Assembly (NCBI RefSeq): GCF_002214365.1
Contig: NZ_CP014854.1
Span: 992,001-1,056,000 of the forward strand
Direction: 5' to 3'
Length of the DNA stretch: 64,000 bases
DNA from: Thermococcus celer Vu 13 = JCM 8558
GTDB taxonomy: Archaea > Methanobacteriota_B > Thermococci > Thermococcales > Thermococcaceae
Below are positions 2,385 through 16,446 of this stretch, one piece after another. A model generated the notes under the pieces. That model did not search any database. It was given only the letters and a program-made list of their open reading frames with translations, and had not been told where the DNA came from. Position 1 is the first letter of the stretch. The number at the start of each line of letters is the position of its first letter. The translations under genes were made by a program, and so were the position numbers.

Positions 2385-3398
2385 TTACCCGAATAGAACG
2401 ATGCGATCGGCCTCGATGTCCTCGAGGGAGGCGTTCCAGCCGCCCACGACGTACCTCTTGCCGTCCTCCGTCTCCACGGTGACGTTTGAGATGACCTTGC
2501 CCTCGTCCTCGTAGAAGTCCACGATTTTCCCCACGAGATGAACCGGCTTCCCCGATCTAACGAAGCGACCGAAGACCTCCACACAGGGGTTCTGGAGCTT
2601 AAACTCCCTAAGGTCGGAGACGAGCTCCCTTATGTGTATGTACTCCTTCGGGAGGCTGAGGGGTTTGTTCTCCCTGTAAACGACCCTTCCGGTGGGCCAG
2701 AGGGCGTGGTAGAAGTAGCGGTCGAGCATGAAGAGGAGGTTGTTGTCTTGGATTACCAGTCCATAGCCGTGGAGGGAGTTACCTGTTGTCAGGGCCTCGT
2801 AGGGCAGGTAAACCCCCATCTCCCTGTCCTGGATCACGATTATGGGGTCGGGAACCTCGCGCACACGGATCTCCGTCGCAAGGGGCGGTACATCCTCCCC
2901 GCCGTAGACGAAGAGGTTTACCCTGATGGAATCCTTCCTCTTCATGAGGTCGTTCTCGAGCCCCCCGAGAAGTTCATGGGGAACCGCAATGCTGAGATGG
3001 AATCTGCTCCTCTTTATGGCCTGCCGGATGTAATCCTCGAGGGTTATCCTGCTCTTAACGACCGTGACGCTCCCGATTTCTCCCTTTGGGGTGTATAGCT
3101 TTTCCAGGGCCGTTTTAAGGGCGTCTATTTTTTCGGTGTAGCGCCTCTTCATGGCGTTCATGACGTTGTTTGGATTGATTGGAACGACCTGCTTCGGCCG
3201 CCCCTCACTCGTAGTCACGAAGCCCTTCGCCATCAGCGTCCTTATCACGTCGTATATCCTGGGCTGGGGAACCTTGGAGAGCGTCGCCAGTTCTCCCGCC
3301 GTTAGGGGACCGTTTCTGATAAGGGTAAGGTATGCCCTAACCTCGTACTCGTTCAGCCCGAGTTCCTTGAGCAGGGACTTTATCTCCCTCTCGTCCAT
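2385..3398 (-). CDS. TrmB-family sugar-responsive transcriptional regulator
   Basis: A 337-residue TrmB-type regulator, close to the 338 residues usual for TrmB. Residues 1-75 form the winged helix (LTAGELATLSKVPQPRIYDV as recognition region). Residues 75-110 are helical linker or dimerisation region, and 110-335 form the sugar-binding effector domain. Members bind sugars and repress or activate sugar ABC operons in Thermococcales. It lies between the transporter ATPase and glycerate kinase genes, 9 bp after the ATPase gene, as T. litoralis trmB lies within its trehalose/maltose operon. It is the best candidate to bind the three AACCAYY-N3-RRTGGTT palindromes of the island. It could equally be a TrmBL paralogue. 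Confidence 0.85.
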   Translation of the reverse strand: MDEREIKSLLKELGLNEYEVRAYLTLIRNGPLTAGELATLSKVPQPRIYDVIRTLMAKGFVTTSEGRPKQVVPINPNNVMNAMKRRYTEKIDALKTALEKLYTPKGEIGSVTVVKSRITLEDYIRQAIKRSRFHLSIAVPHELLGGLENDLMKRKDSIRVNLFVYGGEDVPPLATEIRVREVPDPIIVIQDREMGVYLPYEALTTGNSLHGYGLVIQDNNLLFMLDRYFYHALWPTGRVVYRENKPLSLPKEYIHIRELVSDLREFKLQNPCVEVFGRFVRSGKPVHLVGKIVDFYEDEGKVISNVTVETEDGKRYVVGGWNASLEDIEADRIVLFG

Positions 3399-3407
3399 AG
3401 CCCAACC

Positions 3408-4511
3408 TCAGATTATCGCTTTCTCGGTGCTCCTGTCGAAGACGTGGAGGTTGTCAAGGTCAACCTCTATTTTAATCTTTTCCCCGAGGGGTATGGGTAT
3501 GTGGCCGGGGAGCTTTATCTTGATGATGTTCCCTCCGACCTTAGCGTGCACTATGGTGTCCGTTCCGAGGGCCTCTATGAAGTCGACGACCCCTTCGATC
3601 TCGGCGCTCCTCGTGACGTGCTCCAGCCGGGATACGCCCTTAACCGTCATGTGCTCGGGCCTTATACCCACCAGCACTTCCTTCCCGATGTAATCGCCCA
3701 GAACCTCCCTGAGGTCCCCTGGCAGGGGAATCCTGAAACCGTCGCCCTCGAGGGCTATTCCCCCGTTCTCAACGAGGCTGGCATCGAGGATGTTCATCTC
3801 GGGGGCGCCTATGAAGGTCGCCACGAAGAGGGAGTTGGGCTTGAGGTAGACCTCCGTCGGGGGCCCCACCTGAAGTAACCTACCCTGGTTCATAACCGCT
3901 ATCCTGTCGCCCATCGTCATTGCCTCGACCTGGTCGTGGGTGACGTAAATCGTCGTAACGCCCAGCTTCGTCTGGAGCTTCTTTATCTCCGCACGCATCG
4001 TAACCCTTAGCTTCGCGTCGAGGTTGCTCAGGGGCTCATCCATCAGCAGAACGTCGGGCTCTACCACTATCGCCCTCGCGACGGCGACGCGCTGCCTCTG
4101 ACCTCCGCTGAGCTGGGCCGGGTAGCGATCGAGCAGGGCCTCTATCTGGAGCAGTTCCGCGGCCCACTTGACGCGCTGCCTTATCTCGTCCTCGGGGTAC
4201 TTCTTCACCTTGAGGGGGAAGGCTATGTTGTCAAAGACCTTCATATGGGGCCACACGGCGTAGCTCTGGAAGACCATAGAGATGTTCCGGTCCTTGGGGG
4301 GCAGGTAGGTAACGTCCCTGTCACCGAAGTATATCCTCCCCTCCGTGGGCGTCTCAAGGCCGGATATCATCCTCAAAGTTGTCGTCTTTCCGCAACCGCT
4401 CGGCCCGAGGAGCACGAGGAACTCCCCATCCCTTATCGAGAGGGTTAACTCCTTAACCGCCTCGAAGTTACCGAACCTTTTCGTTATCCTATCGAGCTTA
4501 ACCTCCACCAT
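3408..4511 (-). CDS. Sugar ABC transporter ATP-binding protein (MalK/UgpC type)
   Basis: The 367-residue ATPase of a carbohydrate importer. It has Walker A GPSGCGKTT (~37-45), Q-loop region FQSYAVWPH, ABC signature LSGGQRQRV (~135), Walker B LLMDEPLSNLDAKLR (~155) and switch THDQ (~192). The C-terminal third is the TOBE-type regulatory domain usual for MalK/MsmX proteins (VGIRPEHM). It is in operon with both permeases upstream (9-bp gap) and the TrmB-type regulator downstream. It energises uptake through the permease pair at the inner face of the membrane. Confidence 0.93.
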   Translation of the reverse strand: MVEVKLDRITKRFGNFEAVKELTLSIRDGEFLVLLGPSGCGKTTTLRMISGLETPTEGRIYFGDRDVTYLPPKDRNISMVFQSYAVWPHMKVFDNIAFPLKVKKYPEDEIRQRVKWAAELLQIEALLDRYPAQLSGGQRQRVAVARAIVVEPDVLLMDEPLSNLDAKLRVTMRAEIKKLQTKLGVTTIYVTHDQVEAMTMGDRIAVMNQGRLLQVGPPTEVYLKPNSLFVATFIGAPEMNILDASLVENGGIALEGDGFRIPLPGDLREVLGDYIGKEVLVGIRPEHMTVKGVSRLEHVTRSAEIEGVVDFIEALGTDTIVHAKVGGNIIKIKLPGHIPIPLGEKIKIEVDLDNLHVFDRSTEKAII

Positions 4512-4520
4512 ACCAACACC

Positions 4521-5354
4521 TCACTTGAGTGTTATACCCCACATCGTCACAAGATACTTTCTGGCGAAGAATATGAATATCATAGACGGCAGGGTCATTA
4601 TGAAGGCCGCCGCGAACTTGTAGTAGTCGGGGGCGGCGCCGCCGCTGGAACCCGCCATTATGGAGAGTATCTGGGCGGGAAGGGTTCTGTGGGTCAGGGT
4701 GAGGACGGACGCCACGAAGACCTCGTTCCAGGACATCACGAACGTGAACATAGCGGCGGCCGCCAGACCCGGCAGGGCCAGCGGAAGGGTTATCCTAAGG
4801 AAAGAGCCAAAGCGGGTAAGCCCGAAGACCATCGCCGCCTCCTCGTACTCTTTGGAAACCCCCGCAAAGATGCTGGAGGTTATCAGAACCACGAACGGAA
4901 GCGCCATCGCGGTGTGGGCGAGGGCGACACCGAGGAGCGTGTCCGCAAGGTGCAGTCTGATGTAGAGGACAACGAGGGGTATCGTCATGATGGGGATCGG
5001 GAACATCCTCAGGGCCACTATTGAGAGCTTTATGGTGTCCTTTCCCGGGAATATGAACTTGGCTATCGAATAGCCCGCTGGTATGCCGAGTATGAAGCTT
5101 ATGATTATGGTCAGGGTCGCGACTATCACGCTGTTTTTTATTCCGTCCCATGCGCCGAGCGTGAAGAGCAGGGTTTTGACGTACTCGGTCGTGAAATGGT
5201 GGGGTATCACCTTGTTGGGGTCGTAGTAGTCGGCCTTCGTTGTGAAGCCGTAGAGGAAGGCCACTATCAGGGGAAGGATTATCCATATGACCACGACGAA
5301 GATGACGGTGTAGAACCCCACCTTCTTCAGGGCGTACTTCGTCTCGTCGTTCAT
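4521..5354 (-). CDS. Sugar ABC transporter permease (MalG type)
   Basis: A 277-residue integral membrane permease with about six hydrophobic segments. The cytoplasmic EAA loop is clear (EEAAMVFGLTRFGSFLRITL, ~190-210) and docks on the ATPase. The C-terminus (FIFFARKYLVTMWGITLK) resembles MalG proteins. Its start overlaps the stop of the MalF-type gene by 4 bp (ATGA), implying translational coupling. Confidence 0.92.
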   Translation of the reverse strand: MNDETKYALKKVGFYTVIFVVVIWIILPLIVAFLYGFTTKADYYDPNKVIPHHFTTEYVKTLLFTLGAWDGIKNSVIVATLTIIISFILGIPAGYSIAKFIFPGKDTIKLSIVALRMFPIPIMTIPLVVLYIRLHLADTLLGVALAHTAMALPFVVLITSSIFAGVSKEYEEAAMVFGLTRFGSFLRITLPLALPGLAAAAMFTFVMSWNEVFVASVLTLTHRTLPAQILSIMAGSSGGAAPDYYKFAAAFIMTLPSMIFIFFARKYLVTMWGITLK

Positions 5355-6202
5355 GTCTTCACCTCCAGGTACTCGGCCTTAAGGAACTTCACGTACAGTA
5401 TCCCCAGGAGGAGGGAAAGACCCGCTATAACCAGGGCGTATATCGACGCAACCCCGTAGTCTTTGATCTCCATGAGCTGATAGAAGCCTTCACCGGCTAG
5501 AACGGGGACGTCCCTGCCCGCAAGGATCCACACGACACCGAATATCTGCATCGCGAAGAGGGTCCTTATTATCAGGGCGCTCTGGATGCTCGGCTTCAGC
5601 AGGGGAAGCACTATCCTCCTGAGCCTGGTCCAGTAGTTCGCCCCGAAGACCTCGGCCGCCTCGAGGTAGTCCTTGCTTATCATCTGAAGGCCGGCCAGTA
5701 TCATGACGAAGACTATCGCGGTTGACCTCCAGATCTCGGAGAGCACGATGACGAAGAACTCCCTCGTCCGGTATTGATACCCAAAGAAGTATATGGGGTG
5801 ACTCGTAAGGCCGATGTTCATCAGAAACTTGTTAAGAAAGCCGTAGGGGGAGAGCATCGAGTACCATATTAGACCCGACGCAACATCGCTTATCGTGAGG
5901 GGTATCACAAGGGCGTATATCGCCAGATCCCTGCCCTTGAACGCCTTATTCAAGAGGAGGGCAAGAACCACGGCAAGGGCAACCTGAATGGGGACTATAA
6001 CCGCCGCGAGGGCTATCGTGTTCTTAAGGGCGCTCCAGAAGTAGTAGTTATTAACCGTCCTGCGGACGGTATCGAGGGATAAGGCACCGTTCTTCGTGAA
6101 CGCGAGGTAAAGGGCCTGAACCAGGGGGTATCCCACAAAGAACAACAGATAGGCGAACGCAGGCAAAATTAAAAGGTATGGGAGGAGGGACCTTCTCTCC
6201 AT
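5351..6202 (-). CDS. Sugar ABC transporter permease (MalF type)
   Basis: A 283-residue permease with six predicted membrane helices, beginning with a hydrophobic helix (LLPYLLILPAFAYLLFFVGY). The EAA loop is DYLEAAEVFGANYWTRLRRI (~187-206). It lacks the long periplasmic loop of enteric MalF and matches the short MalF/LacF-type subunits of archaea. It starts 12 bp after the binding-protein stop codon. Confidence 0.92.
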   Translation of the reverse strand: MERRSLLPYLLILPAFAYLLFFVGYPLVQALYLAFTKNGALSLDTVRRTVNNYYFWSALKNTIALAAVIVPIQVALAVVLALLLNKAFKGRDLAIYALVIPLTISDVASGLIWYSMLSPYGFLNKFLMNIGLTSHPIYFFGYQYRTREFFVIVLSEIWRSTAIVFVMILAGLQMISKDYLEAAEVFGANYWTRLRRIVLPLLKPSIQSALIIRTLFAMQIFGVVWILAGRDVPVLAGEGFYQLMEIKDYGVASIYALVIAGLSLLLGILYVKFLKAEYLEVKT

Positions 6203-6214
6203 AGAGACCCTCCG

Positions 6215-7543
6215 TCATGGAACTTCCACGCCGGCCTCGGTGAAGAGGCCTATGAGCTTCGGTTTGAGCTCGCTCGTGACCTTCGCCGGGTCCTCTCCGT
6301 TGAGAACTATCCTCTCGAATGCCGTTCTGTAGATGTCCTTGAAGTCACCACCCTTTGACCCGAGGTTCGGAATCATGGCCACTAACGCGTCGGAGGTGCT
6401 CGACTGAGCCGTAACGCCCTCGGCGAGTATCTTAAGCGGTCCCTCGGGCAGTTTTCCACTCGCTTCCTTGACGGTCGGGAAGAAACCGACCTTCTCCAGA
6501 ACCTTAATCTGGGTCTCCGGCTTGGTGAGGTAGTCTATGAGCTTCCACGCCTCGTCCTTGTGCGGGGCGTTATTGGGTATGGCGAGGCCCGCGAGAACGA
6601 CGATGAAGCCCCTTCCCTTGGGTCCCCTTGGGACCGGGACGACAACGAACTGGTCGGGCTTCGTGGTTATGGCGTCTTTAATCCTCGCCGTGTGGTCCCA
6701 GGCTATGAGAACCTCTCCCTTGAGGAGCGGGTCGCTCATCGCGTCCCAGGTGGTGCTCGACGGGTGGACGTAGGGCCAGAGCTCCTTGAGGTAGTTCCAC
6801 ATCGTAACGGCGTCCGGGCTGTCGAACTCCTTGGCCTGGTAGCCCGTGTAGCTCGGGTAGATGTAGCCGTGGAGGAACCTGACGAAGAGTCCCTTCGGCC
6901 CGGCCGGGAAGCCCACCTGTGGCTGGCCCGTGGAATCTTTGAGCTTCTTGGCCCACGCCAGGAAGGCGTCGTAGGTCCACTTGTCGGTTCCCTTCATGAC
7001 GTCATCCTCTGTAAGTCCGTCGGGGAGGTACTTGAAAGCCTCCTTGTTGACCACCATAACGTAGGTGGCGCTCATCCATGGAACGTAGACCTTCTTTCCG
7101 TTAATGACGGAGTACTTCTCGAAGGTGCCTATGAAGGTCCTGCCCTCGAGCTTGGGCATGCCGCTCAGGTCCATCAGCCAGCCTTTGGATGCCATGTAGT
7201 CCATACCGCCGTGAAGGTCACCCACGACGTCGATGGTTACCTTCCCCGTTTTCTCCTCTGCATCGAGCCTCGTAACCATGTCCGTGTACGAGACCGGGAC
7301 GAAGTTAACATTTATACCTGTCTCGTCCGTGAAGCCCTTCAGCAGGGTCTGCTGGACGAAGGCCCTTTCCTCGGGCGGGGTCAGCTGGGTTGAAAGCCAG
7401 GTCAAGGTTACTTTCTCGGTCGCAGTGGTCGTTTTGCTCGTGCCGGTTTCACTGGTGGTCTCTCCCCCACCGCTTATGCATCCGCTGGCCACCACTCCAA
7501 AAACCACAACGACGACCAGCAAAAGCCCAAACAGTCTCTTCAT
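6215..7543 (-). CDS. Sugar ABC transporter substrate-binding lipoprotein
   Basis: A 442-residue extracellular solute-binding protein. The start at 7543 is chosen because GGGTGAT sits just upstream and gives a clean signal peptide (MKRLFGLLLVVVVVFGVVAS), followed by a lipobox-like Cys (SGC) and a Ser/Thr-rich linker of the kind that tethers archaeal binding proteins to the membrane. The family 1 fold is visible in VTLTWLSTQ..., LVAMIPNLGSKGGD and the LIAWDHTARI region. It is the first gene of the six-gene operon, 58 bp downstream of its TATA box. The ligand cannot be read from sequence; context suggests a glycoside. Confidence 0.9.
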   Translation of the reverse strand: MKRLFGLLLVVVVVFGVVASGCISGGGETTSETGTSKTTTATEKVTLTWLSTQLTPPEERAFVQQTLLKGFTDETGINVNFVPVSYTDMVTRLDAEEKTGKVTIDVVGDLHGGMDYMASKGWLMDLSGMPKLEGRTFIGTFEKYSVINGKKVYVPWMSATYVMVVNKEAFKYLPDGLTEDDVMKGTDKWTYDAFLAWAKKLKDSTGQPQVGFPAGPKGLFVRFLHGYIYPSYTGYQAKEFDSPDAVTMWNYLKELWPYVHPSSTTWDAMSDPLLKGEVLIAWDHTARIKDAITTKPDQFVVVPVPRGPKGRGFIVVLAGLAIPNNAPHKDEAWKLIDYLTKPETQIKVLEKVGFFPTVKEASGKLPEGPLKILAEGVTAQSSTSDALVAMIPNLGSKGGDFKDIYRTAFERIVLNGEDPAKVTSELKPKLIGLFTEAGVEVP

Positions 7544-7600
7544 GGTCATCACCCGATACATTCATCCAGTAAGGTACTTCAAGGGATTTACGTGGACGAT

Positions 7601-7609
7601 GTTTATAAG
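7601..7609 (-). promoter_or_regulatory. TATA box of the transporter operon
   Basis: On the minus strand the sequence reads CTTATAAAC, preceded by an A-rich BRE-like stretch. Transcription should start near 7580, giving a leader of about 35 nt before the ATG at 7543. The palindrome at 7622-7638 lies 12 bp upstream, where a bound factor would touch TFB/BRE. Confidence 0.7.
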
Positions 7610-7621
7610 ATTTGCGTTTAA

Positions 7622-7638
7622 AACCACTGAAAGTGGTT
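7622..7638. promoter_or_regulatory. Palindromic operator A, AACCACT-GAA-AGTGGTT
   Basis: A perfect 7-bp inverted repeat with a 3-bp spacer, upstream of the TATA box of the transporter operon and followed by GT. The same motif occurs in the other two control regions of the island (9734-9750 and 11864-11880). I infer it is the binding site of the TrmB-type regulator encoded in the operon, or of another island-specific factor. Confidence 0.72.
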
Positions 7639-7662
7639 GTATTTACAAAAGAGTAAAAGTTC

Positions 7663-8676
7663 TTAGAGGTCGAGCCTCACCGTTCTCCCCGTCCGGGAGG
7701 ACTCGTAGGCGGCGAGGATTATCGCGAGGTTCCTCCTGGCGTCCTCACCCGTTATTGGAACGTCGGTATCCCTGAGAACGGCCGTGGTGAATGAGTCCAC
7801 TATTCCCCTCACATCGGGCCTGTCCCAGTAGATCTTTTCAGCCCTGTCCTGATAAACGGTGAAATCCGGGTAGGCCGTTCTTATGTCAAGGAAACCCTCC
7901 CTTCCGACGAGGTAGTACTTCATCTCGATGCCGTAGGAGTAGCCCTTGGGGTTGCCCCAGCCGGCGGTGAGGACGGCCAGAACACCGTTTCTGAACTCGA
8001 GAACCGCCGTTCCGATGTCGTCCACGGGGAAGCCGTACACCTTGGAACCGATGTCCGCGTAGACCTTCTTTGGAACGTCACCGGTCAGCCAGAGAAGGGA
8101 GTCGACGCCGTGGGGGGCCGTGTCCATGAAGCCGCCACCACCGGATTTCCTCGCGTCCAGGAACCAGCTCATGTCAAGCCCCTGGAGGAATATCGGCGGC
8201 TTGACGTTCTCGGAGATGGTCTGGGCGTACTCGAGGGGGCCTATCTCGCCGGCATCGAGCATTTCCCGGGCCTTTCTCAGGGGGTCTGTGAAGCGCGGGT
8301 TGAAGGGCAGCATAAGCTTGACGCCGGCCCTCTCGGCCGCTTTTATGACCTCGTCCGCGTCCTTCAGGTTGAGGGCGATCGGCTTCTCAAGGAGGATGTG
8401 CTTGCCCTCCTCGGCGGCCCTTACGGCGATCTCCTTATGCCGATAAGTCTCTATGGCGATGTAGACCGCCTCCACATTCTCGTCCCTCAGGAGGACCTCG
8501 TAGTCCCCGTAGAACCTCGCACCGTACCTCCTCGCCTCCGCCCGGGCGACGTCGGAATTCGAGCCGTCGCCGGAAATGGCCACGAGCTTCGTCCCCTTGC
8601 CTTGAGCTATCGCTGAAGCAAAACGGAGGGCGTGCGGATGGGCGTAACTTATTACCCCGAAGTTGAGCTTCTTCAT
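7663..8676 (-). CDS. Gfo/Idh/MocA family oxidoreductase
   Basis: A 337-residue NAD(P)-dependent sugar dehydrogenase-like protein. The N-terminal Rossmann fold (NFGVISYAHPHALRFA...) has an atypical glycine motif. The family EKP motif is present (HILLEKPIAL, ~92-101), as is the C-terminal substrate domain (GGGGFMDTAPHGVDSLLWLTG). It overlaps the upstream paralogue by 4 bp (8673-8676) and is co-transcribed with it. The pair probably interconverts or epimerises a sugar through a keto intermediate. The substrate is unknown. Confidence 0.87.
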   Translation of the reverse strand: MKKLNFGVISYAHPHALRFASAIAQGKGTKLVAISGDGSNSDVARAEARRYGARFYGDYEVLLRDENVEAVYIAIETYRHKEIAVRAAEEGKHILLEKPIALNLKDADEVIKAAERAGVKLMLPFNPRFTDPLRKAREMLDAGEIGPLEYAQTISENVKPPIFLQGLDMSWFLDARKSGGGGFMDTAPHGVDSLLWLTGDVPKKVYADIGSKVYGFPVDDIGTAVLEFRNGVLAVLTAGWGNPKGYSYGIEMKYYLVGREGFLDIRTAYPDFTVYQDRAEKIYWDRPDVRGIVDSFTTAVLRDTDVPITGEDARRNLAIILAAYESSRTGRTVRLDL

Positions 8677-9680
8677 ATCTCAACCACCTCCCCCTTCCGG
8701 GCGCTCTCCTTGGCCTTCTCGGCGATCTTCAGCGCAATAAGGGCATCTTCAGCCGTAACCACCGGTTCTTCTTTCCCCTTGATGCAGTTGAAGAAGTGCC
8801 TCAGCTCGCGCTCGAAGGCATCTGGGAACGTCGAGAGAAGCGGTGAGAAGCGGGGCATCTCGAAGTTGGCCTTGGCGACGCCGACGACGGGGGTGTCCAT
8901 AGGGGTATAACGTATCCTGCCGTTCTTCCCGATAATGTCCACGTGGTGGTAGAACACACCGTAGCGCGCTGGATACGGGTAAGCCCAGCTGACCTCGGCT
9001 ATGCCCGTCTTTTCACCCTCAAACCTTATCATCATGAAGAAGTGGTCAAAGGTTCCGTTTGCCCTTGCCTCTTCCTTTATCGCCTTGCCAACGGCGTAGA
9101 CGCTCACCGGTTCGCTCTCGAAGAACCAGCGCAGGAAGTCGGTGACGTGAACGCCGAGGTCGACGGCGACGCCGCCGCTTTTCCTTTCATCCCAGTACCA
9201 GTAGTCCTTCGGGAAGGGAAGGTTCTGAACCTCGGCCTTCCTGATGTGAACCGGAAGGACGTTGCGCTTCTCTATGACCTCCTTCATCTGAATCCATCTC
9301 TTATCAAAGCGCCTCACGTGGCCAACGAAGAGGTGCAAGCCCTCTTTCTCCGCGGTCCTTATCATCCTCTCGCCCTCTTCGACGGTTAGTGCTATCGGCT
9401 TCTCGACTATCACGTGCTTCCCCGCCCTGAGGGCAGAGACGGCAAGCTCAGCGTGGCTGTACGTCGGGGTCAGCACCTCAACGACGTCGAGGTCGAGGTC
9501 AAGGAACTCGTCGAGGTTCGTGAAAGCCTTCGCCCCGAGGGCCTTAGCGCCTTCCCGGGCCCTGGTGGTGTCTATATCCATGCACGCAACGACCTTAATG
9601 CCCTCTATCTCTTTCAGTGCCCTCTTGTGGGCGAGGTTGAATATGTTCCCGCAGCCTATCACTCCCACCCTCAGCTTCAT
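8673..9680 (-). CDS. Gfo/Idh/MocA family oxidoreductase
   Basis: A 335-residue oxidoreductase with a good Rossmann motif (VGVIGCGNIF, near residue 5), the EKP motif (HVIVEKPIAL, ~94) and the C-terminal family signature (GGVAVDLGVHVTDFLRWF). The catalytic Lys is expected within EKP. The start at 9680 (MKLRVGV) follows GGCGATGTCC; an ATG two codons earlier, at 9686, is also possible. It heads a two-gene operon driven from the TATA at 9712-9719, with operator B upstream of that TATA. Identity with the downstream copy looks low, so the two are probably functionally different partners. Confidence 0.87.
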   Translation of the reverse strand: MKLRVGVIGCGNIFNLAHKRALKEIEGIKVVACMDIDTTRAREGAKALGAKAFTNLDEFLDLDLDVVEVLTPTYSHAELAVSALRAGKHVIVEKPIALTVEEGERMIRTAEKEGLHLFVGHVRRFDKRWIQMKEVIEKRNVLPVHIRKAEVQNLPFPKDYWYWDERKSGGVAVDLGVHVTDFLRWFFESEPVSVYAVGKAIKEEARANGTFDHFFMMIRFEGEKTGIAEVSWAYPYPARYGVFYHHVDIIGKNGRIRYTPMDTPVVGVAKANFEMPRFSPLLSTFPDAFERELRHFFNCIKGKEEPVVTAEDALIALKIAEKAKESARKGEVVEI

Positions 9681-9711
9681 GGACATCGCCTGAACGGAAT
9701 ACGGTCGAAAG

Positions 9712-9719
9712 GTATATAA
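9712..9719. promoter_or_regulatory. Shared TATA box for divergent oxidoreductase and glycosyltransferase genes
   Basis: The sequence around TATATA reads GTATATAA on plus and TTATATAC on minus. It is the only TATA-like element in the 95-bp divergent spacer. Minus-strand start would fall near 9690; plus-strand start near 9740, inside operator B. The plus gene has a strong AGGAGGGTGG ribosome binding site. Confidence 0.6.
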
Positions 9720-9733
9720 CCCTTTTCAAAATA

Positions 9734-9750
9734 AACCACTCTAAATGGTT
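9734..9750. promoter_or_regulatory. Palindromic operator B, AACCACT-CTA-AATGGTT
   Basis: This matches operator A in 13 of its 14 arm positions, with one broken pair, and is also followed by GT. It is 14 bp upstream of the TATA for the oxidoreductase operon and at the expected start site for the divergent glycosyltransferase gene. A bound factor could therefore act oppositely on the two genes. Confidence 0.7.
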
Positions 9751-9775
9751 GTAACTTAAGGAGGGTGGAAGGACG

Positions 9776-10918
9776 ATGAGGGTCGTCGTTGGAATTCCAA
9801 GCTACAACAACGCGGGAACCATCTCTTTCGTCGTTAAACAGGCCGCCGAAGGGCTGAGGAAGTACTTCGGCGGGGGAATCGTCGTCAACGCCGACGGTGG
9901 AAGCACCGACGGGACGAGGGAAGCCGTGTTGAAAACGGAAGTCCCGGCCGGTGTTGAGGTTCACAGTTTCGTTTACAGGTGGCCCATCCCGGGCAAGGGC
10001 AGCGCCATGAAGGAGCTGATGGAGTTCGCCCTCGGAAGGGACGCCGATGCAATAGTGTTCGTGGACAGTGACCTGAGGAGCATAACCCCTGAGTGGATAG
10101 ACCGCCTCGCCCGACCCATCGAGGAGGGGTACGACTTCGTGGCACCGCTCTACATAAGGCACAAGTGGGACGGCACGATAACCAACAACATAGCCTACCC
10201 GATGACCGCCTCGCTCTACGGCAGGAACGTCAGACAGCCGATAGGGGGCGACTTCGGGATAGGAAGGAAGCTCATGGAGGCCTACCTCGAGGACGAGGAG
10301 GTCTGGAAGACCCACGTGGCGCGCTTCGGCGTCGACATATTCCTGACCACGACGGCCATAGCGAGGGGCTTTAAGGTGACCCAGGCGGCTCTCGGCATGA
10401 AGATACACGACCCCAAGGACCCGGCCGCGTCGCTGGGCCCCATGTTCAACCAGGTCGTCGGAACGCTCTTCATGCTGATGGAGAAATACGAGGATAGATG
10501 GAAGGACGTGAGGAGCATAGAGCCCGTTCCTGTCTTCGGGGAGCTGGAGAAGGGCGAGCCGGAGCCGGTGAGGGTGACGCTGGAGCTCCTGGAGGAGAGG
10601 GCAAAGGAGCTCTTCACCGAGCACGAGGCCGTTCTTAGAAAGGCCCTGAGCCGGGAGACACTCGAGGGGGTGAAGGAAGCCCTGAGAACCTTCGAGTTCG
10701 ACGACGAACTCTGGAGCCACGTCCTCTACGACGGGGCGGTGGCCTACAAGGAAGGAATCCTCAGCGAGGCCGAACCCCTTGTCCCGCTCTACTTCGCCAA
10801 GACTGCTGATTTCGTCAGGAAAACCGCGGAGATGAGCACGCTCGAGGCGGAAAAGCTGATAGAGAAGAGGGCAAAGGTCTTCCTCGAGGAGAAGGACTAC
10901 CTGCTGGAGCGCTGGTAG
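9776..10918 (+). CDS. GT-A glycosyltransferase, GT2/GT81-like (glycosyl-glycerate synthase-like)
   Basis: A 380-residue cytoplasmic glycosyltransferase with no membrane segment. Visible motifs are VVGIPSYNNAGTISFV at the N-terminus, NADGGSTDGT (~43-52), PGKGSAMKELM (~77), the metal-binding FVDSDLRSITPEW (~97), RQPIGGDFGIGRKL (~152) and HDPKDPAASL. The PGKG...VDSD...QPxGG(D/E) series is shared with glucosyl-3-phosphoglycerate synthases and mannosylglycerate synthase-type enzymes. The last ~130 residues are helical. Neighbouring glycerate kinase makes glycerate or phosphoglycerate an attractive acceptor, but this is inference. Its 3' end overlaps the convergent PfkB gene by 22 bp. Confidence 0.75.
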   Translation: MRVVVGIPSYNNAGTISFVVKQAAEGLRKYFGGGIVVNADGGSTDGTREAVLKTEVPAGVEVHSFVYRWPIPGKGSAMKELMEFALGRDADAIVFVDSDLRSITPEWIDRLARPIEEGYDFVAPLYIRHKWDGTITNNIAYPMTASLYGRNVRQPIGGDFGIGRKLMEAYLEDEEVWKTHVARFGVDIFLTTTAIARGFKVTQAALGMKIHDPKDPAASLGPMFNQVVGTLFMLMEKYEDRWKDVRSIEPVPVFGELEKGEPEPVRVTLELLEERAKELFTEHEAVLRKALSRETLEGVKEALRTFEFDDELWSHVLYDGAVAYKEGILSEAEPLVPLYFAKTADFVRKTAEMSTLEAEKLIEKRAKVFLEEKDYLLERW

Positions 10919-11847
10919 AGCCCCCTCACCTCCCTCATCAATATTATTTCCTCCATCTTTGGAACGCTCCACGCCCCCCTGCGGGTGGTCGAGAGGGCCG
11001 CCACGAGGTTGGCAAAGCGGCCGATTCTCCTCAGGCTTTCCTCATCGAGTTCCATTTTACCGAGCAGGTTTGAATGATAGAGGCCCGCCAGAAGGGCGGC
11101 CATGAACGCGTCCCCCGCGCCCGTGGTATCGAGGGGCTCAACCCTGTAGGCCGGAACACGAACCCTGCAGCACTCCCCAACCAGCTCACTACCCCTCTCG
11201 CCGGAGGTTACCGCCATCAGCCATGGATTGAAGTTCTCCGGCTCAATCCCGTTGCCCCTCAGGTACTCCAGCTCACCGTCCCCCAGCTTGACCACATCAG
11301 CCAGTCTGAGGGCCTCCTCAACGTCCCGGAGCATCTCCCCGTTTCTTCCGCGCCAGAGGTCGGGCCTCAGGTTGACGTCGTAGCTCAGCATAACCTTCCC
11401 CTTGAGCTTCCGCAAAATCCCGAAGAGCGTCGAGCGGGAGGGCTCCCTCGCGAGGAGCACGGTCCCGAAGTGAACAACCTCGGCGTTTTCAAGGACGGAG
11501 AAGTCAACGTCCCCCGGTTTCAGGTTGAAGTAGGCAACGCCGTCGTACAGTATGAACTCCGGCTTCGCCCCTATCAGCTGGACGAAGACCACGCCCGTGT
11601 GCCTCTCCCCATCCCGGGGAATGTAAGTTCTCACGCCCTCGTTGCGGAGCTCCTCAAGCAGAAAGTCCCCGAAGGGGTCGTCGCCGACCTTGCTCACCAG
11701 CGCGCTCTCAACGCCGAGCCTCGAGAGGCCGACCGCCACGTTAGCCGGGGCACCGCCGGGGTGCCTCTCGAAGGATCTCACCTCCCTCAGCCTCCCCTCC
11801 TGGAGCGCTATGAAGTCTATGAGGACCTCGCCGATGGAGACCATCAT
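10897..11847 (-). CDS. PfkB-family carbohydrate kinase (fructokinase/KDG-kinase-like)
   Basis: A 316-residue ribokinase-fold kinase. The first signature is GGAPANVAVGLSRLGVESAL (~31-50); the second, containing the catalytic Asp, is DTTGAGDAFMAALLAG (~235-250). The ATG at 11847 was chosen because GGTGAT sits 7 nt upstream; ATGs at 11853 and 11844 are alternatives. It diverges from the isomerase-like gene through operator C. It likely phosphorylates a monosaccharide released or remodelled by the island. It could be a fructokinase, a 2-keto-3-deoxygluconate kinase or an ADP-dependent sugar kinase relative. Confidence 0.88.
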   Translation of the reverse strand: MMVSIGEVLIDFIALQEGRLREVRSFERHPGGAPANVAVGLSRLGVESALVSKVGDDPFGDFLLEELRNEGVRTYIPRDGERHTGVVFVQLIGAKPEFILYDGVAYFNLKPGDVDFSVLENAEVVHFGTVLLAREPSRSTLFGILRKLKGKVMLSYDVNLRPDLWRGRNGEMLRDVEEALRLADVVKLGDGELEYLRGNGIEPENFNPWLMAVTSGERGSELVGECCRVRVPAYRVEPLDTTGAGDAFMAALLAGLYHSNLLGKMELDEESLRRIGRFANLVAALSTTRRGAWSVPKMEEIILMREVRGLYQRSSR

Positions 11848-11863
11848 TCCCATCACCGGATGC

Positions 11864-11880
11864 AACCATTGAGGGTGGTT
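11864..11880. promoter_or_regulatory. Palindromic operator C, AACCATT-GAG-GGTGGTT
   Basis: Read on the minus strand it is AACCACC-CTC-AATGGTT followed by GC, which aligns with operators A and B over both arms and the trailing G. It is upstream of the TATA for the plus-strand isomerase gene and over the predicted start of the minus-strand kinase. The arrangement repeats that of operator B. Confidence 0.68.
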
Positions 11881-11892
11881 TACAACGCAACG

Positions 11893-11899
11893 GTTATAT
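11893..11899. promoter_or_regulatory. Shared TATA box for divergent kinase and isomerase-like genes
   Basis: TTATATG on plus and CATATAA on minus are the only TATA-like sequences in the spacer. Plus transcription would start near 11920, minus transcription near 11870, inside operator C. Confidence 0.6.
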
Positions 11900-11930
11900 G
11901 CTTTTTCGCCAACATTCCCCGGTGTTTCCC

Positions 11931-13409
11931 ATGATAGCCGTCCTTACTTTCACCGATCCCAGACCGACGGCCCTCTCGGAGGAGCGCGAGCGGGCCCTGA
12001 TGGAGAAGCATTCCGGACTCGTGGAGGAGTTAAGGGAGGAGGGTTTCGAGGTCCTTGACGTCAACGGGAGGCTCGGGAAGTACGAGGCCCTCAAAGCCGG
12101 AAGGAACTTCGGCGTGGATTCGATGGAGGGGGCCTTTGAAGCCGGAAAGATGATAGCAGGAGAGGGCGCGAGCGGGGTGATAGCAGGCCTCTGGCACTGG
12201 ACCGAGAGCAACCTCGTCACGGCGATGGTGAGGGAAGCCAAGAGGCCCGTCCTCCTCTACGCCGATGACGACCCTGCATGGGCTGGGACGACGTGCGTGA
12301 CCTCGGTTGGCGCCTCCCTCTGGGAGAGCGCGGTTAACGAGTACGCTTTAAACCACGTCCGCATCAAGGGGGACGTTGGGAAGGTCAAGGCCTGGGCACG
12401 GGCGGCTGAGGCCGTCTCGAAGCTCTCGAGGAAGTCCCTCCTCCTGTGGGGAGCCCCCTACACCCTCGGGATGGAGCACCTGATGGACGACCTGCCTGGG
12501 CTCAAGAGGATCGTTGGCGATTTCGTAATCCTCGATCAGTACGTTCTCGTGAGGAAGGCCGAGGAACTGCTCTCGGGTGAGGAAGAACGGGTGGAAGGAT
12601 TCTACGACTGGCTGAACGGGAAGGTTAAGGTTAAGTTCGACGGCCGCATGCTGACGCCCGGGGTGTTAAAGAAGCAGATAGCCCTTTATCTGGCCGCGAA
12701 GGAGAGCTGGGGGGAACACGGTGAAATCTCGGCCGTCTCCGTAAAGTGCCAGCCCGAGCTGAGCGAGGTCTACGGCGTCACCCCCTGCCTGATTCCAGCG
12801 TTCTTCCCGTTCAACGTGGATGCAGAGGGCGAGAAGGAGGTCGTTCCCGCGACGTGCGAGGGCGACGTAAAGGGGACGATAAGCTCGGCCCTGCTCTTCT
12901 ACCTGAGCGGTAAACCGCCCCTCTTTGGCGATATAAAGTACGTGGACGATGGGATAGTTCTAATAGCCAACTGCGGCGCCTCCTCGCTCTACTACGCGAG
13001 GCTGAGCGATGACCCCGAGGAGAACCTTGGGGCCACTTTAATCCAAGGGCAGTGCCAGGGGAAGAGCGGTGGCGCTTTGACGTACAGAACGCCACCCGGG
13101 AAGTTCACCGTGGCCAGGCTGATACGACGCGGCGGGGAACACTACCTGCTCTACTTCCTCGCCGAGGGGGTGGAGATAACCGAAGAGCTGGAGTCAAAGC
13201 TTAAGTGGGGCAAGCAATGGCCGCACACCGCCGTAAGGAACCCCCTCGACAAGGAGACCTTCATCTCGGCCATGGGCGCCAACCACCTCTCGCTCGTTCC
13301 GGGCGACTACACCGGGGAGCTCAGGTTCGTGGCGAGGCTATGGGGGATAAGGGCGGTGGACCTTGGAGACAGGCGAGAGGTGAAATCCTTCCTCGAGGGA
13401 GGGCAATGA
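11931..13409 (+). CDS. L-fucose/L-arabinose isomerase-fold protein
   Basis: A 492-residue protein of the fucose/arabinose isomerase superfamily: N-terminal Rossmann-like half (LTFTDPRPTALSEERER, GVIAGLWHWTESNLVTAM, RPVLLYADDDPAWAGTTC) and C-terminal half with SAVSVKCQPELSEVYGVTPCLIPAF and ATCEGDVKGTISSALLFYLSGKPPLFGDI. The family binds Mn2+ through Glu/Asp/His; CEGD is a likely acidic ligand site. The ATG at 11931 is downstream of the TATA at 11893 and preceded by GGTG; the ORF extends 11 codons further upstream, across the likely transcription start. Its stop overlaps the glycosidase start (ATGA). Aldose-ketose isomerisation is the family reaction; the specific sugar is unknown. Confidence 0.78.
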   Translation: MIAVLTFTDPRPTALSEERERALMEKHSGLVEELREEGFEVLDVNGRLGKYEALKAGRNFGVDSMEGAFEAGKMIAGEGASGVIAGLWHWTESNLVTAMVREAKRPVLLYADDDPAWAGTTCVTSVGASLWESAVNEYALNHVRIKGDVGKVKAWARAAEAVSKLSRKSLLLWGAPYTLGMEHLMDDLPGLKRIVGDFVILDQYVLVRKAEELLSGEEERVEGFYDWLNGKVKVKFDGRMLTPGVLKKQIALYLAAKESWGEHGEISAVSVKCQPELSEVYGVTPCLIPAFFPFNVDAEGEKEVVPATCEGDVKGTISSALLFYLSGKPPLFGDIKYVDDGIVLIANCGASSLYYARLSDDPEENLGATLIQGQCQGKSGGALTYRTPPGKFTVARLIRRGGEHYLLYFLAEGVEITEELESKLKWGKQWPHTAVRNPLDKETFISAMGANHLSLVPGDYTGELRFVARLWGIRAVDLGDRREVKSFLEGGQ

Positions 13410-15268
13410 GGACGATACTGGCGTCCAACGGGGCCTTCGTCCTGAGCGATGAGAGGGGGGACATGGGCGGAGTCTACGACGGCTTTTACCTCCTCGACAC
13501 GCGCTTCGTCAGGAAGGTCAAGCTGGAGGTATCCCCAGGGCCGGAGTTCATGGGGGCCTCATCGACGTTCACAACGGCGGTCTCCCACTTCTCCCTCGGC
13601 GGGAGGGGAGTTCTCGTAAGAGTGAGAACGCTGAACGGGACTTACGGGGAGAGGCTGTCCTTCTACAACACATCCGACGGGCCGCTGGAGGTTCGGGTTA
13701 GGTACTCCTACGAGGCACCCATCGAGGACGTATTCCAGGTCAGGGGTTTCATGGGGCTGAAGGGCGAGGAAGCAATGGCCCCGACGGACGGGAGGTACGT
13801 TCGAGAGAGCCCCGCGGGAAGGAGAAGCCTGACCGTCGAGACCAACATGGAGCGGGAGGGAAACGTCCTGAGGGCCGAGCTCAGGATACCTCCCCGCGGG
13901 AAGGCCACGCTACACGTTCGCTTCGTTCCTGGCATCGAGGACAAGGTCTCGGGGATGCTCGGTGAAGAAAGGGAGTGGATAGGGAACGTTGCCTTCACCG
14001 GTTCGCCGGCAATCGACGGGATCTTCGAGAGGGCCGTGGAGAACATAAACGCCCTCACCCTCTTCACGCGCTTCGGGCCGGTTCCCCTCGCCGGAATTCC
14101 ATACTTCGCCTGCCCCTTCGGGAGGGACGCGATAGTAACCTCGCTCTTCCTCCTGCCCTACTATCCGGAATACGCCGCCGGCACGCTGAGGCTCCTCGGA
14201 CGGCTCCAGGGGAAACGGAACAACCCCGAGAACGAGGAAGAGCCGGGGAAGATACCCCACGAGTTCAGGCTCGGACAGCTCGCCCAGTCGGGGAGGGTTC
14301 CCTTCGCGCCCTACTACGGCACCGTCGATGCCACCCCGCTCTACGTGGCCTTGGCTGGAGAGTACCTGCGCTGGACGGGGGACGAAGACCTGATAGGGGA
14401 GCTAAGGCCGAACCTCACGGCCGCCGTGGAGTGGATACTGAGAAAGCTCGATGAGGGTTACGTAACCTACGTTCCCGGGATACTCGGCAACAAGGGCTGG
14501 AAGGACTCGAGGGACGGGATAGTCGACGAAAATGGAAATCCGCCGAAACCGCCCGTGGCGCTCGTCGAGGTGCAGGGCTACGCCCACTGGGCGCTCAGGC
14601 TCGCGGGAGAGCTCGGGCTGACGGAGCTCGACGAAAAGGAGCTTCTAACCGAGGCAGAGCGGCTCAGGAAAAGGTTCAACCGCGACTTCTGGCTCGGCTC
14701 CCACTACGCCCTCGCGCTGGACGGCGATGGGAGACCGCTAAAGCCGGTATCGTCGAACATGGGGCACATCCTCCTCACGGGGATAGCGGAGCACGAGGGG
14801 GAAATCGTGGAGAGGCTCTTCCAGCCGGACATGCTATCCAGCTATGGAATACGGACCCTGAGCGCCGGGGAGAGGGCCTACGACCCCTTCAGCTACCACC
14901 GCGGGAGCGTATGGCCGCACGATAACGCTCTGATAGCGCTGGGCCTCGCGAGGATAGGAAAGGCCAATCTCGCGAGGGAGCTCATGGAACGGGTCTTCGC
15001 GGCGGCGAAACTGATGCCCTGGAAGGAGCTCCCGGAGCTCTACAGCGGGCTGGACGATCTCGTTCCCGTCCCGAGGGCCAACTCGCCGCAGGCCTGGAGC
15101 GCGGCGAGCGTCTTCGCGTTCCTGACGGCCTCGCTGGGAATGGAAAGCGGAGACGAACTCAAGGTTAAACCGGCCGAGGGCATGAGGGTAATCCTGAGGG
15201 GAGTTCGGTTCAGGGGAAGGAGATACTCGGTGGTCGTGGATGGCGGAGCGGAAGTTAGGCGTTTATGA
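13406..15268 (+). CDS. Debranching-type (alpha/alpha)6 glycosidase (amylo-alpha-1,6-glucosidase family)
   Basis: A 620-residue protein. Residues 1-190 match the beta-rich GDE_N_bis domain (VYDGFYLLDTRFVRKVKLEV), and 200-600 form the (alpha/alpha)6 toroid of COG3408 (YFACPFGRDAIVTSLFLLPY, SYHRGSVWPHDNALIALGLA, PRANSPQAWSAASVFAF). No secretion signal is seen, so it acts inside the cell. Family members cleave alpha-glucosidic or alpha-mannosidic bonds, including glycogen branches in some. With a glycerate kinase in the island it could hydrolyse a glycosyl-glycerate, but this is untested. It begins within the isomerase stop codon, and its 3' end overlaps the GH130 start by 29 bp, so the three were one operon. 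Confidence 0.8.
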   Translation: MRTILASNGAFVLSDERGDMGGVYDGFYLLDTRFVRKVKLEVSPGPEFMGASSTFTTAVSHFSLGGRGVLVRVRTLNGTYGERLSFYNTSDGPLEVRVRYSYEAPIEDVFQVRGFMGLKGEEAMAPTDGRYVRESPAGRRSLTVETNMEREGNVLRAELRIPPRGKATLHVRFVPGIEDKVSGMLGEEREWIGNVAFTGSPAIDGIFERAVENINALTLFTRFGPVPLAGIPYFACPFGRDAIVTSLFLLPYYPEYAAGTLRLLGRLQGKRNNPENEEEPGKIPHEFRLGQLAQSGRVPFAPYYGTVDATPLYVALAGEYLRWTGDEDLIGELRPNLTAAVEWILRKLDEGYVTYVPGILGNKGWKDSRDGIVDENGNPPKPPVALVEVQGYAHWALRLAGELGLTELDEKELLTEAERLRKRFNRDFWLGSHYALALDGDGRPLKPVSSNMGHILLTGIAEHEGEIVERLFQPDMLSSYGIRTLSAGERAYDPFSYHRGSVWPHDNALIALGLARIGKANLARELMERVFAAAKLMPWKELPELYSGLDDLVPVPRANSPQAWSAASVFAFLTASLGMESGDELKVKPAEGMRVILRGVRFRGRRYSVVVDGGAEVRRL

Positions 15269-15656
15269 GTTCAGATTCGAGAAACTCCCGGGGCCCGTTC
15301 TCTCCCCCTCGAAGGAGGGGTTCGACTCGAAGAACACCTACAACCCCGCGGTGGTCGAGAGGAGGGGAAAGGTGGTCATGCTTTACCGCGCGGAGGCGAA
15401 GGGGGAGGGGATAACCGGGAGGATCGGACTGGCGCTCAGCAGGGACGGGGTTAATTTCATCCGGCATCCAGAACCGGTTATGGAACCCGAGTACGGCTGG
15501 GAGAGGCTCGGCGTTGAAGATCCACGCGTCGTGAGGGTTGGAAAGACGTACCACATGACCTATACGGGCTACGACGGAAAAACGGCCAGACTCTGCATCG
15601 CCACCTCGAAGAACCTCCTGAACTGGAAGAAGCGCGGGGTCGTTTTTGAGGGCTGT

Positions 15657-15896
15657 TCTCTAAATAGTAGCTATCACAACATTTGAATATTTTTGTTTTT
15701 TTCAAAAAACTTTAAATGGCTCCGTGTTTAACTATTGATGTCCCCGATATGTGGGGTTTTAAGCCCGAATGGGGACTGGGGAGGGGGTTGTGGCGAAGAT
15801 GTGGGGAGTGCCCGTTCCCCCCGAAAGCCCTCCAATGAAGCCTGAGGAGGGAAGGTTAACCGTAACAATATTTACAAAAGTTACGGCTAACCAGAA
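15657..15896 (+). mobile_element. ~240-bp ORF-less structured insertion (MITE-like, possibly IS200/IS605-derived)
   Basis: The block interrupts GH130 and holds no ORF of interest. Its left part is AT-rich, with a small hairpin (ATAG-TAG-CTAT, 15667-15677) and a T-run/A-run palindrome near 15700, then a good promoter-like AAACTTTAAATGG. A GC-rich region follows with nested inverted repeats: GTCCCC/GGGGAC, CCCC/GGGG and CCCTCC/GGAGGG. The right part has a 13-bp inverted repeat with one mismatch (15854-15866 with 15880-15892). Subterminal hairpins, no clear target duplication and a structured right-end transcript suggest a derivative of an IS200/IS605- or IS607-type element. Boundaries are good to about 5 bp. 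Confidence 0.6.
15854..15892. repeat. Right-end inverted repeat of the insertion
   Basis: The arms GGTTAACCGTAAC and GTTACGGCTAACC pair over 12 of 13 positions around a 13-nt A/T-rich loop. They sit just inside the junction where GH130 coding sequence resumes. Confidence 0.8.
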
Positions 15897-16446
15897 CGGT
15901 TCCCCTTCCCAAAGAACGGCGTTACCGACTGGACGAAGAGCGGGGCAGTACTGCCCGAGAGGATGAAGTCGGGGCCGTTTAAAGGTCACTACATCATGTA
16001 CTTCGGGGACTCCAGCGTCTGGCTGGCGTATTCGAAGGACCTCCTCCACTGGGAGTACGATCCAAAGCCGGTTATGGGGCCGAGGGGTTACCTCGTGGAG
16101 CCCGGGCCGGCTCCAGTCCTCACAGAGGATGGGATACTCCTGATACACAGCGAGGCCTTTAATGAGAATGGAAAGCTCGTCTACTACACCCACGCGGCCC
16201 TCTTTGACCGGGAGGATCCCAGAAAGCTTGTCTGGAGAACAGAAAAACCTATCCTCAAACCGACCTTCGACTGGGAGCGGCACGGGTGGGTGGACAACGT
16301 GGTCTTTGCGGAGGCCATGATAGAGCGCGGAGGGAAGCTCCACCTCTACTACGGTGCCGCGGACAGGTACGTGGGCCTCGCTATGGGAAGGGTAGTGCCC
16401 GCAAGTCTTAAATAGGGACGTGACGGACCCTCAAAGAGGGGAATTG

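Follow-up and report, generated by a model that had tools for sequence, protein, structure and literature searches.

A conserved 17-bp palindrome as the predicted operator of TrmBL5, a local TrmB-family regulator of Thermococcaceae

The palindrome AACCAYY-N3-RRTGGTT occupies the three control regions of a sugar island of Thermococcus celer and is very probably the operator of TrmBL5, a regulator of the TrmB family whose gene lies in that island. In this reading, the island forms a closed local regulon, with activation from sites centred at about -50 of the predicted starts and repression at a glycosyltransferase gene (GT) and a sugar kinase gene (PFKB). Control of archaeal promoters by TrmB-family regulators that act through palindromes is well known. 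The TrmBL5 operator with its complete regulon, and its sister specificity in a common 17-bp frame, appear to be new; no earlier report of a TrmBL5 binding site or regulon was found in the open-access literature searched. The window analysed is a 64,000-nucleotide stretch of T. celer Vu 13 (NZ_CP014854.1, positions 992,001 to 1,056,000), and coordinates refer to it unless a locus is named.

A minus-strand operon of the island encodes an ABC importer (3408-7561), made of a solute-binding protein (SBP, 6215-7561), two permeases (4521-5354 and 5351-6202) and an ATPase (3408-4511). The regulator gene (2385-3398) is the penultimate gene of this operon, which ends with a glycerate 2-kinase-like gene, GK (DUF4147 and MOFRL, 1046-2365). 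Two Gfo/Idh/MocA oxidoreductases (7663-9686), OXR1 (7663-8676) and OXR2 (8673-9686), are encoded on the same strand. GT (9776-10918, plus strand) is a distant relative of mannosylglycerate synthase (MGS) and glucosyl-3-phosphoglycerate synthase (GpgS), and PFKB (10897-11850, minus strand) is a PfkB-family relative of PH1459. The plus-strand genes at 11931-16415 encode a FUCI-like isomerase (11931-13409), a GDE/MGH-like glycosidase (13403-15268) and a GH130 protein (15240-16415). The frame of the GH130 gene is broken by a repeat of ~250 bp inserted at 15652-15905, which recurs in the genome as five further near-full copies, with 85-98% identity, and as several partial ones. The gene is intact at three other loci (L076, L080, L085).

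Apart from gaps of at most 20 bp, the island has three intergenic regions, A (7562-7662), B (9687-9775) and C (11851-11930). Each contains one palindrome with no mismatch, at 7622-7638, 9734-9750 and 11864-11880, and the window holds no further match even with two mismatches allowed. The first-pass annotation had thus correctly placed one copy in each of only three control regions, beside a TATA box and with a trailing G: this G is found at 7639, at 9751 and, on the minus strand, at 11863. Operator A, on the minus strand, lies upstream of the SBP-PERM1-PERM2-ATPase-TrmBL5-GK operon, 13 bp from its TATA box (CTTATAAA, 7602-7609, minus strand). Operator B is located between the divergent OXR2 (minus) and GT (plus). 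These genes have in common a TATA box at 9711-9718 that reads in both directions (GTTATATAC / GTATATAAC) and is conserved in the region B alignments; its bidirectional use is presumed. Operator C separates the divergent PFKB (minus) and FUCI (plus), which share a TATA box at 11893-11900, also readable both ways.

Pattern searches of the whole 1.87-Mb genome gave four exact copies, the three of the island and one elsewhere, where 0.068 are expected by chance at the base composition of the window; the reversed pattern, searched as a control, gave none. The fourth copy (G000:C1:1634968, L004) lies just upstream of the ATG of a HAD-type hydrolase gene. It has neither a TATA box nor the TAC/TA flanks and a chance probability of ~0.07, and was rejected as a regulon member. 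A search for further members with the extended pattern and three mismatches returned just two more, poor, matches.

The regulator carries an N-terminal winged-HTH TrmB domain (PF01978, 2e-22; 79.2 bits for a cut-off of 25.6) and a C-terminal sugar-binding domain (PF11495, 4e-43; 147.8 bits for a cut-off of 22.2). Y49, D50, G320 and E326 are invariant in ten orthologues; in the TrmB family, the Tyr-Asp pair is assigned to DNA binding and Gly320/Glu326 to sugar binding (PMC4158304). The protein was rejected as TrmBL1 or TrmB itself, since it scores 138.8 of the 650 bits and 86.4 of the 600 bits set by the respective NCBIfam equivalogs. A separate TrmBL1-like paralogue is encoded at G000:C1:1499141. 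Judged by sequence and gene order, the regulator is the orthologue of T. barophilus TERMP_01835, named TrmBL5 (PMC10667668): identity is ~60% over the full length, the gene cluster is the same with its order conserved, and the published TERMP_01835 RT-qPCR primers match exactly within the orthologue that we compared (L104/G086). A TrmB-like site, TACTN6AGATA, was proposed in silico for T. barophilus at 1,624,822-1,624,836 (PMC10667668). This sequence corresponds to L104:8223-8237, just downstream of the SBP-operon TATA box, and differs from the palindrome. The conserved palindrome is at L104:8255-8271, its start 32 bp away, and the published guess looks wrong as a TrmBL5 site. The T. barophilus cluster has an integrase-like ORF (L104:11635-12726) at its edge, immediately past GT.

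Among 94 Thermococcaceae genomes, 46 contain a member of the regulator orthologue group, at 55-83% identity, the next matches being at about 33%. The 46 include two partial hits (G070, split by contig ends, and G080, truncated). The exact motif is present in 41/46 genomes with TrmBL5 versus 1/48 without it, and a relaxed oriented pattern in 43/46 versus 1/48 (Fisher p ~1e-19 to 1e-21 for exact and relaxed patterns, not corrected for relatedness; given the physical linkage of palindromes and island, the genomes are non-independent points). Two TrmBL5 genomes lacking the exact motif have variant sites. The three exceptions to the relaxed pattern are G056, with the island deleted between ATPase and FUCI, G060, whose contig ends before the sites, and G080, with a decayed island in which regulator and GT are truncated. 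The matches in genomes without TrmBL5, an exact one near the end of an ORF in G069 (L067) and a relaxed one inside an ORF in G048 (L222), were rejected as sites. Outside the islands, four exact matches are found in all 94 genomes, as compared with ~6.5 expected by chance.

Alignment of the promoter regions extends the consensus to TAC-AACCAYY-N3-RRTGGTT-TA. Region B has the exact motif at 33/34 loci, the exception being the island of G080, and its ten fixed bases are invariant at the 33 loci, which span five genera. Region A has 0-3 mismatches at 36/36 loci. Its right half AGTGGTT is kept with one exception (L118), and its left half is altered at one or two positions to AACAACT, AACTACT or AACTACA in several genomes from several genera. 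Among 12 loci with region C, seven show no mismatch, four show two, and one lacks the site. The four variants (L079, L080, L081, L084) have the symmetric site AACAACTTTTGGTTGTT, both half-sites being changed from AACCAC/GTGGTT to AACAAC/GTTGTT. Their A and B sites keep the consensus. We count the changed C sites of these genomes, whose regulator is normal, and the altered left halves of region A against the TrmBL5-operator reading. Taken together, genome scan and comparison support the local regulon that had been proposed: the motif accompanies the orthologues, is conserved where the island is carried, and is not equally common at unrelated genes, with one extra copy in T. celer, about the chance level.

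A better test than co-occurrence is provided by genomes that keep target genes and lack the regulator. GT is present at 73-77% identity in ten such genomes, the nine of genus g3, probably Pyrococcus-like, and G024. OXR2 and OXR1 stand beside it in the nine whose contig includes the OXR2 side (all but G010). The exact motif occurs nowhere in these ten genomes, and in the nine readable GT promoters the best palindrome has 4-5 mismatches, the level of shuffled sequences. Presence of the palindrome thus follows that of the regulator and not that of the target genes. We regard this comparison as decisive among those that sequences allow, and it favours the earlier proposal that the regulator at 2385-3398 would control the sites. 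In five of the nine g3 genomes (L211, L213, L215, L217, L218), a different palindrome, TTTAGTNACTRAA, lies beside the GT TATA box. It is almost unique in those genomes and may represent an operator swap.

The placement of the operator is constant. It ends 12-16 bp before the TATA box of SBP, OXR2 or FUCI in 81/81 promoters, and this spacing is fixed across three non-homologous promoters. With transcription starts predicted as TATA centre + 26, the operator centre falls at about -50 in all three. The TATA boxes of regions B and C can be read on the opposite strand as well, and in that direction the operator centre is at most 2 bp from the predicted GT or PFKB start. For TrmBL1, sites upstream of BRE/TATA serve activation and downstream sites repression (PMC4706686), and archaeal activators usually bind upstream of BRE and TATA (PMC5937170). 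By analogy with this position rule and with activator placement, TrmBL5 would activate the transporter, oxidoreductase and glycosidase genes and repress GT and PFKB.

We propose that a TrmBL5 dimer binds the 17-bp site in the three promoter regions, which would define a closed local regulon including its own gene. The TrmBL5 gene belongs to the operon behind operator A, so autoregulation is expected and probably occurs. Bound just upstream of BRE/TATA, the dimer would most likely activate the SBP operon, OXR2-OXR1 and the FUCI-GH genes. In the divergent regions B and C, the same bound dimer would cover the GT or PFKB start and most likely repress both genes. A sugar or glycoside that the island imports or makes itself is the probable effector. 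In T. barophilus, TERMP_01835 expression is changed only slightly by maltose (PMC10667668). The effect of ligands differs within the family, since MalR activates with maltose and TrmB is released by it (PMC4158304); a ligand could thus either promote or end TrmBL5 binding. A further idea, possible if somewhat doubtful, is that one dimer and one bidirectional TATA box per divergent region set the neighbouring genes oppositely, as a see-saw switching between making (GT) and uptake or breakdown (OXR, ABC, GH) of the same glycoside class.

TrmBL5 might instead bind the palindrome as a plain repressor everywhere. At about -50, it would hinder access of TFB to BRE or form loops, and imported sugar would release it and thereby induce the transporter and catabolic genes. 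Importer operons are most often controlled by such substrate-released repression, as is the TM operon by TrmB in P. furiosus and T. litoralis (PMC4158304). However, TrmB represses by overlapping BRE/TATA, and the TrmBL5 operator leaves 12-16 bp to the TATA box and lies upstream of BRE in every one of the 81 promoters. In addition, two of three templates were activated in vitro through TrmBL1 sites lying upstream (PMC4706686). We therefore consider repression throughout a serious but rather unlikely alternative. It is improbable that the palindrome is recognised by another DNA-binding protein common to all Thermococcaceae, such as TrmBL1, with TrmBL5 as a bystander. The palindrome does resemble the TrmBL1 site in register, and co-occurrence alone cannot tell the regulator from other island genes. 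Yet the orthologous GT/OXR2 promoters lack the site where TrmBL5 is absent, and the further sites to be expected of a general regulator are not seen beyond chance. TrmBL1's own motif is found separately, at ~15 places in the T. celer genome (at most one mismatch).

Least likely of all, the palindromes would be chance occurrences, a repeat element, or RNA hairpins and terminators. They may form stems, and there are T-runs at the end of OXR1, upstream of region A. Against this, the B and C sites lie between divergent genes, and neither an Rfam match nor a terminator call was obtained at the palindromes. The probability of finding at least three exact copies by chance in the 15.4-kb island is ~3e-11. 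Fewer than 0.5% of shuffles of the region sequences get to even two mismatches. Site positions are constant over five genera and variation is mainly in the central bases; as far as alignments can tell, a chance origin is already refuted by this conservation.

Read as a TrmBL5 operator, the palindrome can be placed among the sites of related regulators. The TrmBL1 site is TATCAC-N5-GTGATA, the Thermococcales glycolytic motif (TGM), and the TrmB site is TACT-N3-AGTA (PMC4158304). The motif had been set apart from TGM, which is right for the letters: no island-type site matches TATCAC-N5-GTGATA, the outer bases differing in all of them. It is not an unrelated motif, since both are 17-bp palindromes in the same register, with CAC at positions 4-6 and GTG at 12-14. 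In our motif alignment, the TrmB site maps to positions 4-7 and 11-14 of this frame. On these grounds, the TrmBL5 palindrome is a sister specificity to TGM. The recognition-helix stretch is PQPR-x-YD in all ten TrmBL5 orthologues compared, PHTR-x-YD in TrmBL1 and PYNR-x-YD in TrmB. Variable and constant positions of the protein thus correspond to those of the DNA, a correlation and not a proof. A TrmB-type regulator with 30% identity is encoded beside GK and GT in a distant family (G094). The palindrome upstream, AACTACTTTCAGTAGTA (L220:1369-1385), is of the TrmB-like form TACT-N3-AGTA in the 17-bp frame of the TrmBL5 palindrome.

TrmBL1/Tgr resembles TrmBL5 in belonging to the TrmB family and in using a 17-bp palindrome, with sites upstream (activating) or downstream (repressing) of BRE/TATA (PMC4706686). 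It differs by its outer bases (TAT...ATA instead of AAC...GTT), by PHTR in place of PQPR, and by a global regulon of 37 ChIP peaks, where that of TrmBL5 would be local to one island. TrmB is, like TrmBL5, a local regulator in an ABC-transporter operon, with a core xACT-N3-AGTx in the same register. In contrast, its TM-operon site overlaps BRE/TATA and represses, whereas the TrmBL5 sites, which carry additional outer bases, are separated from the TATA box by 12-16 bp. TFB-RF1 with TCTGAANTTCAGA offers a parallel outside the motif family: this activator also has a palindrome that is conserved in Thermococcales and lies upstream of BRE/TATA with constant spacing (PMC5937170). Its motif is unrelated and it activates weak-BRE promoters, whereas TrmBL5 promoters have BRE-like A-runs. 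MalR of S. acidocaldarius is a TrmB-family activator of its sugar-transport genes (PMC4158304) whose motif consists of two ATAATACT repeats, unlike the TrmBL5 palindrome.

Gene-content comparison shows that the core accompanying TrmBL5 consists of GT, OXR2, OXR1 and the ABC importer. GK, the PfkB kinase, the FucI-like isomerase, the GDE/MGH-like glycosidase and GH130 are additions in part of two genera. A cluster of GK, GT, ABC importer, OXR1 and OXR2 in another gene order, at 33-50% identity, is found outside Thermococcaceae (L221). In family searches, the relation of GT to MGS/GpgS, the glycerate kinase and the MGH-like domain point toward a glycosyl-glycerate-like compound, and uptake and turnover of such a compound is a reasonable guess at the regulon function, no more. 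Because a PDB entry closely similar to the island glycosidase bears the label glycogen debranching enzyme, we do not claim a substrate.

With this analysis, TrmBL5, an archaeal regulator that had been named but not characterised, receives a predicted operator and a complete set of predicted targets, and we suggest that its published site be corrected. Since the placement is fixed and two-sided, whether position decides between activation and repression can be tested directly in T. barophilus, for which a gene-deletion system exists (PMC10667668). TrmBL1, TrmB and TrmBL5 would be three sister proteins with sites in one 17-bp frame, differing by few bases that match changes at two helix residues. 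They may thus offer a ready system for the specificity code of archaeal sugar regulators.
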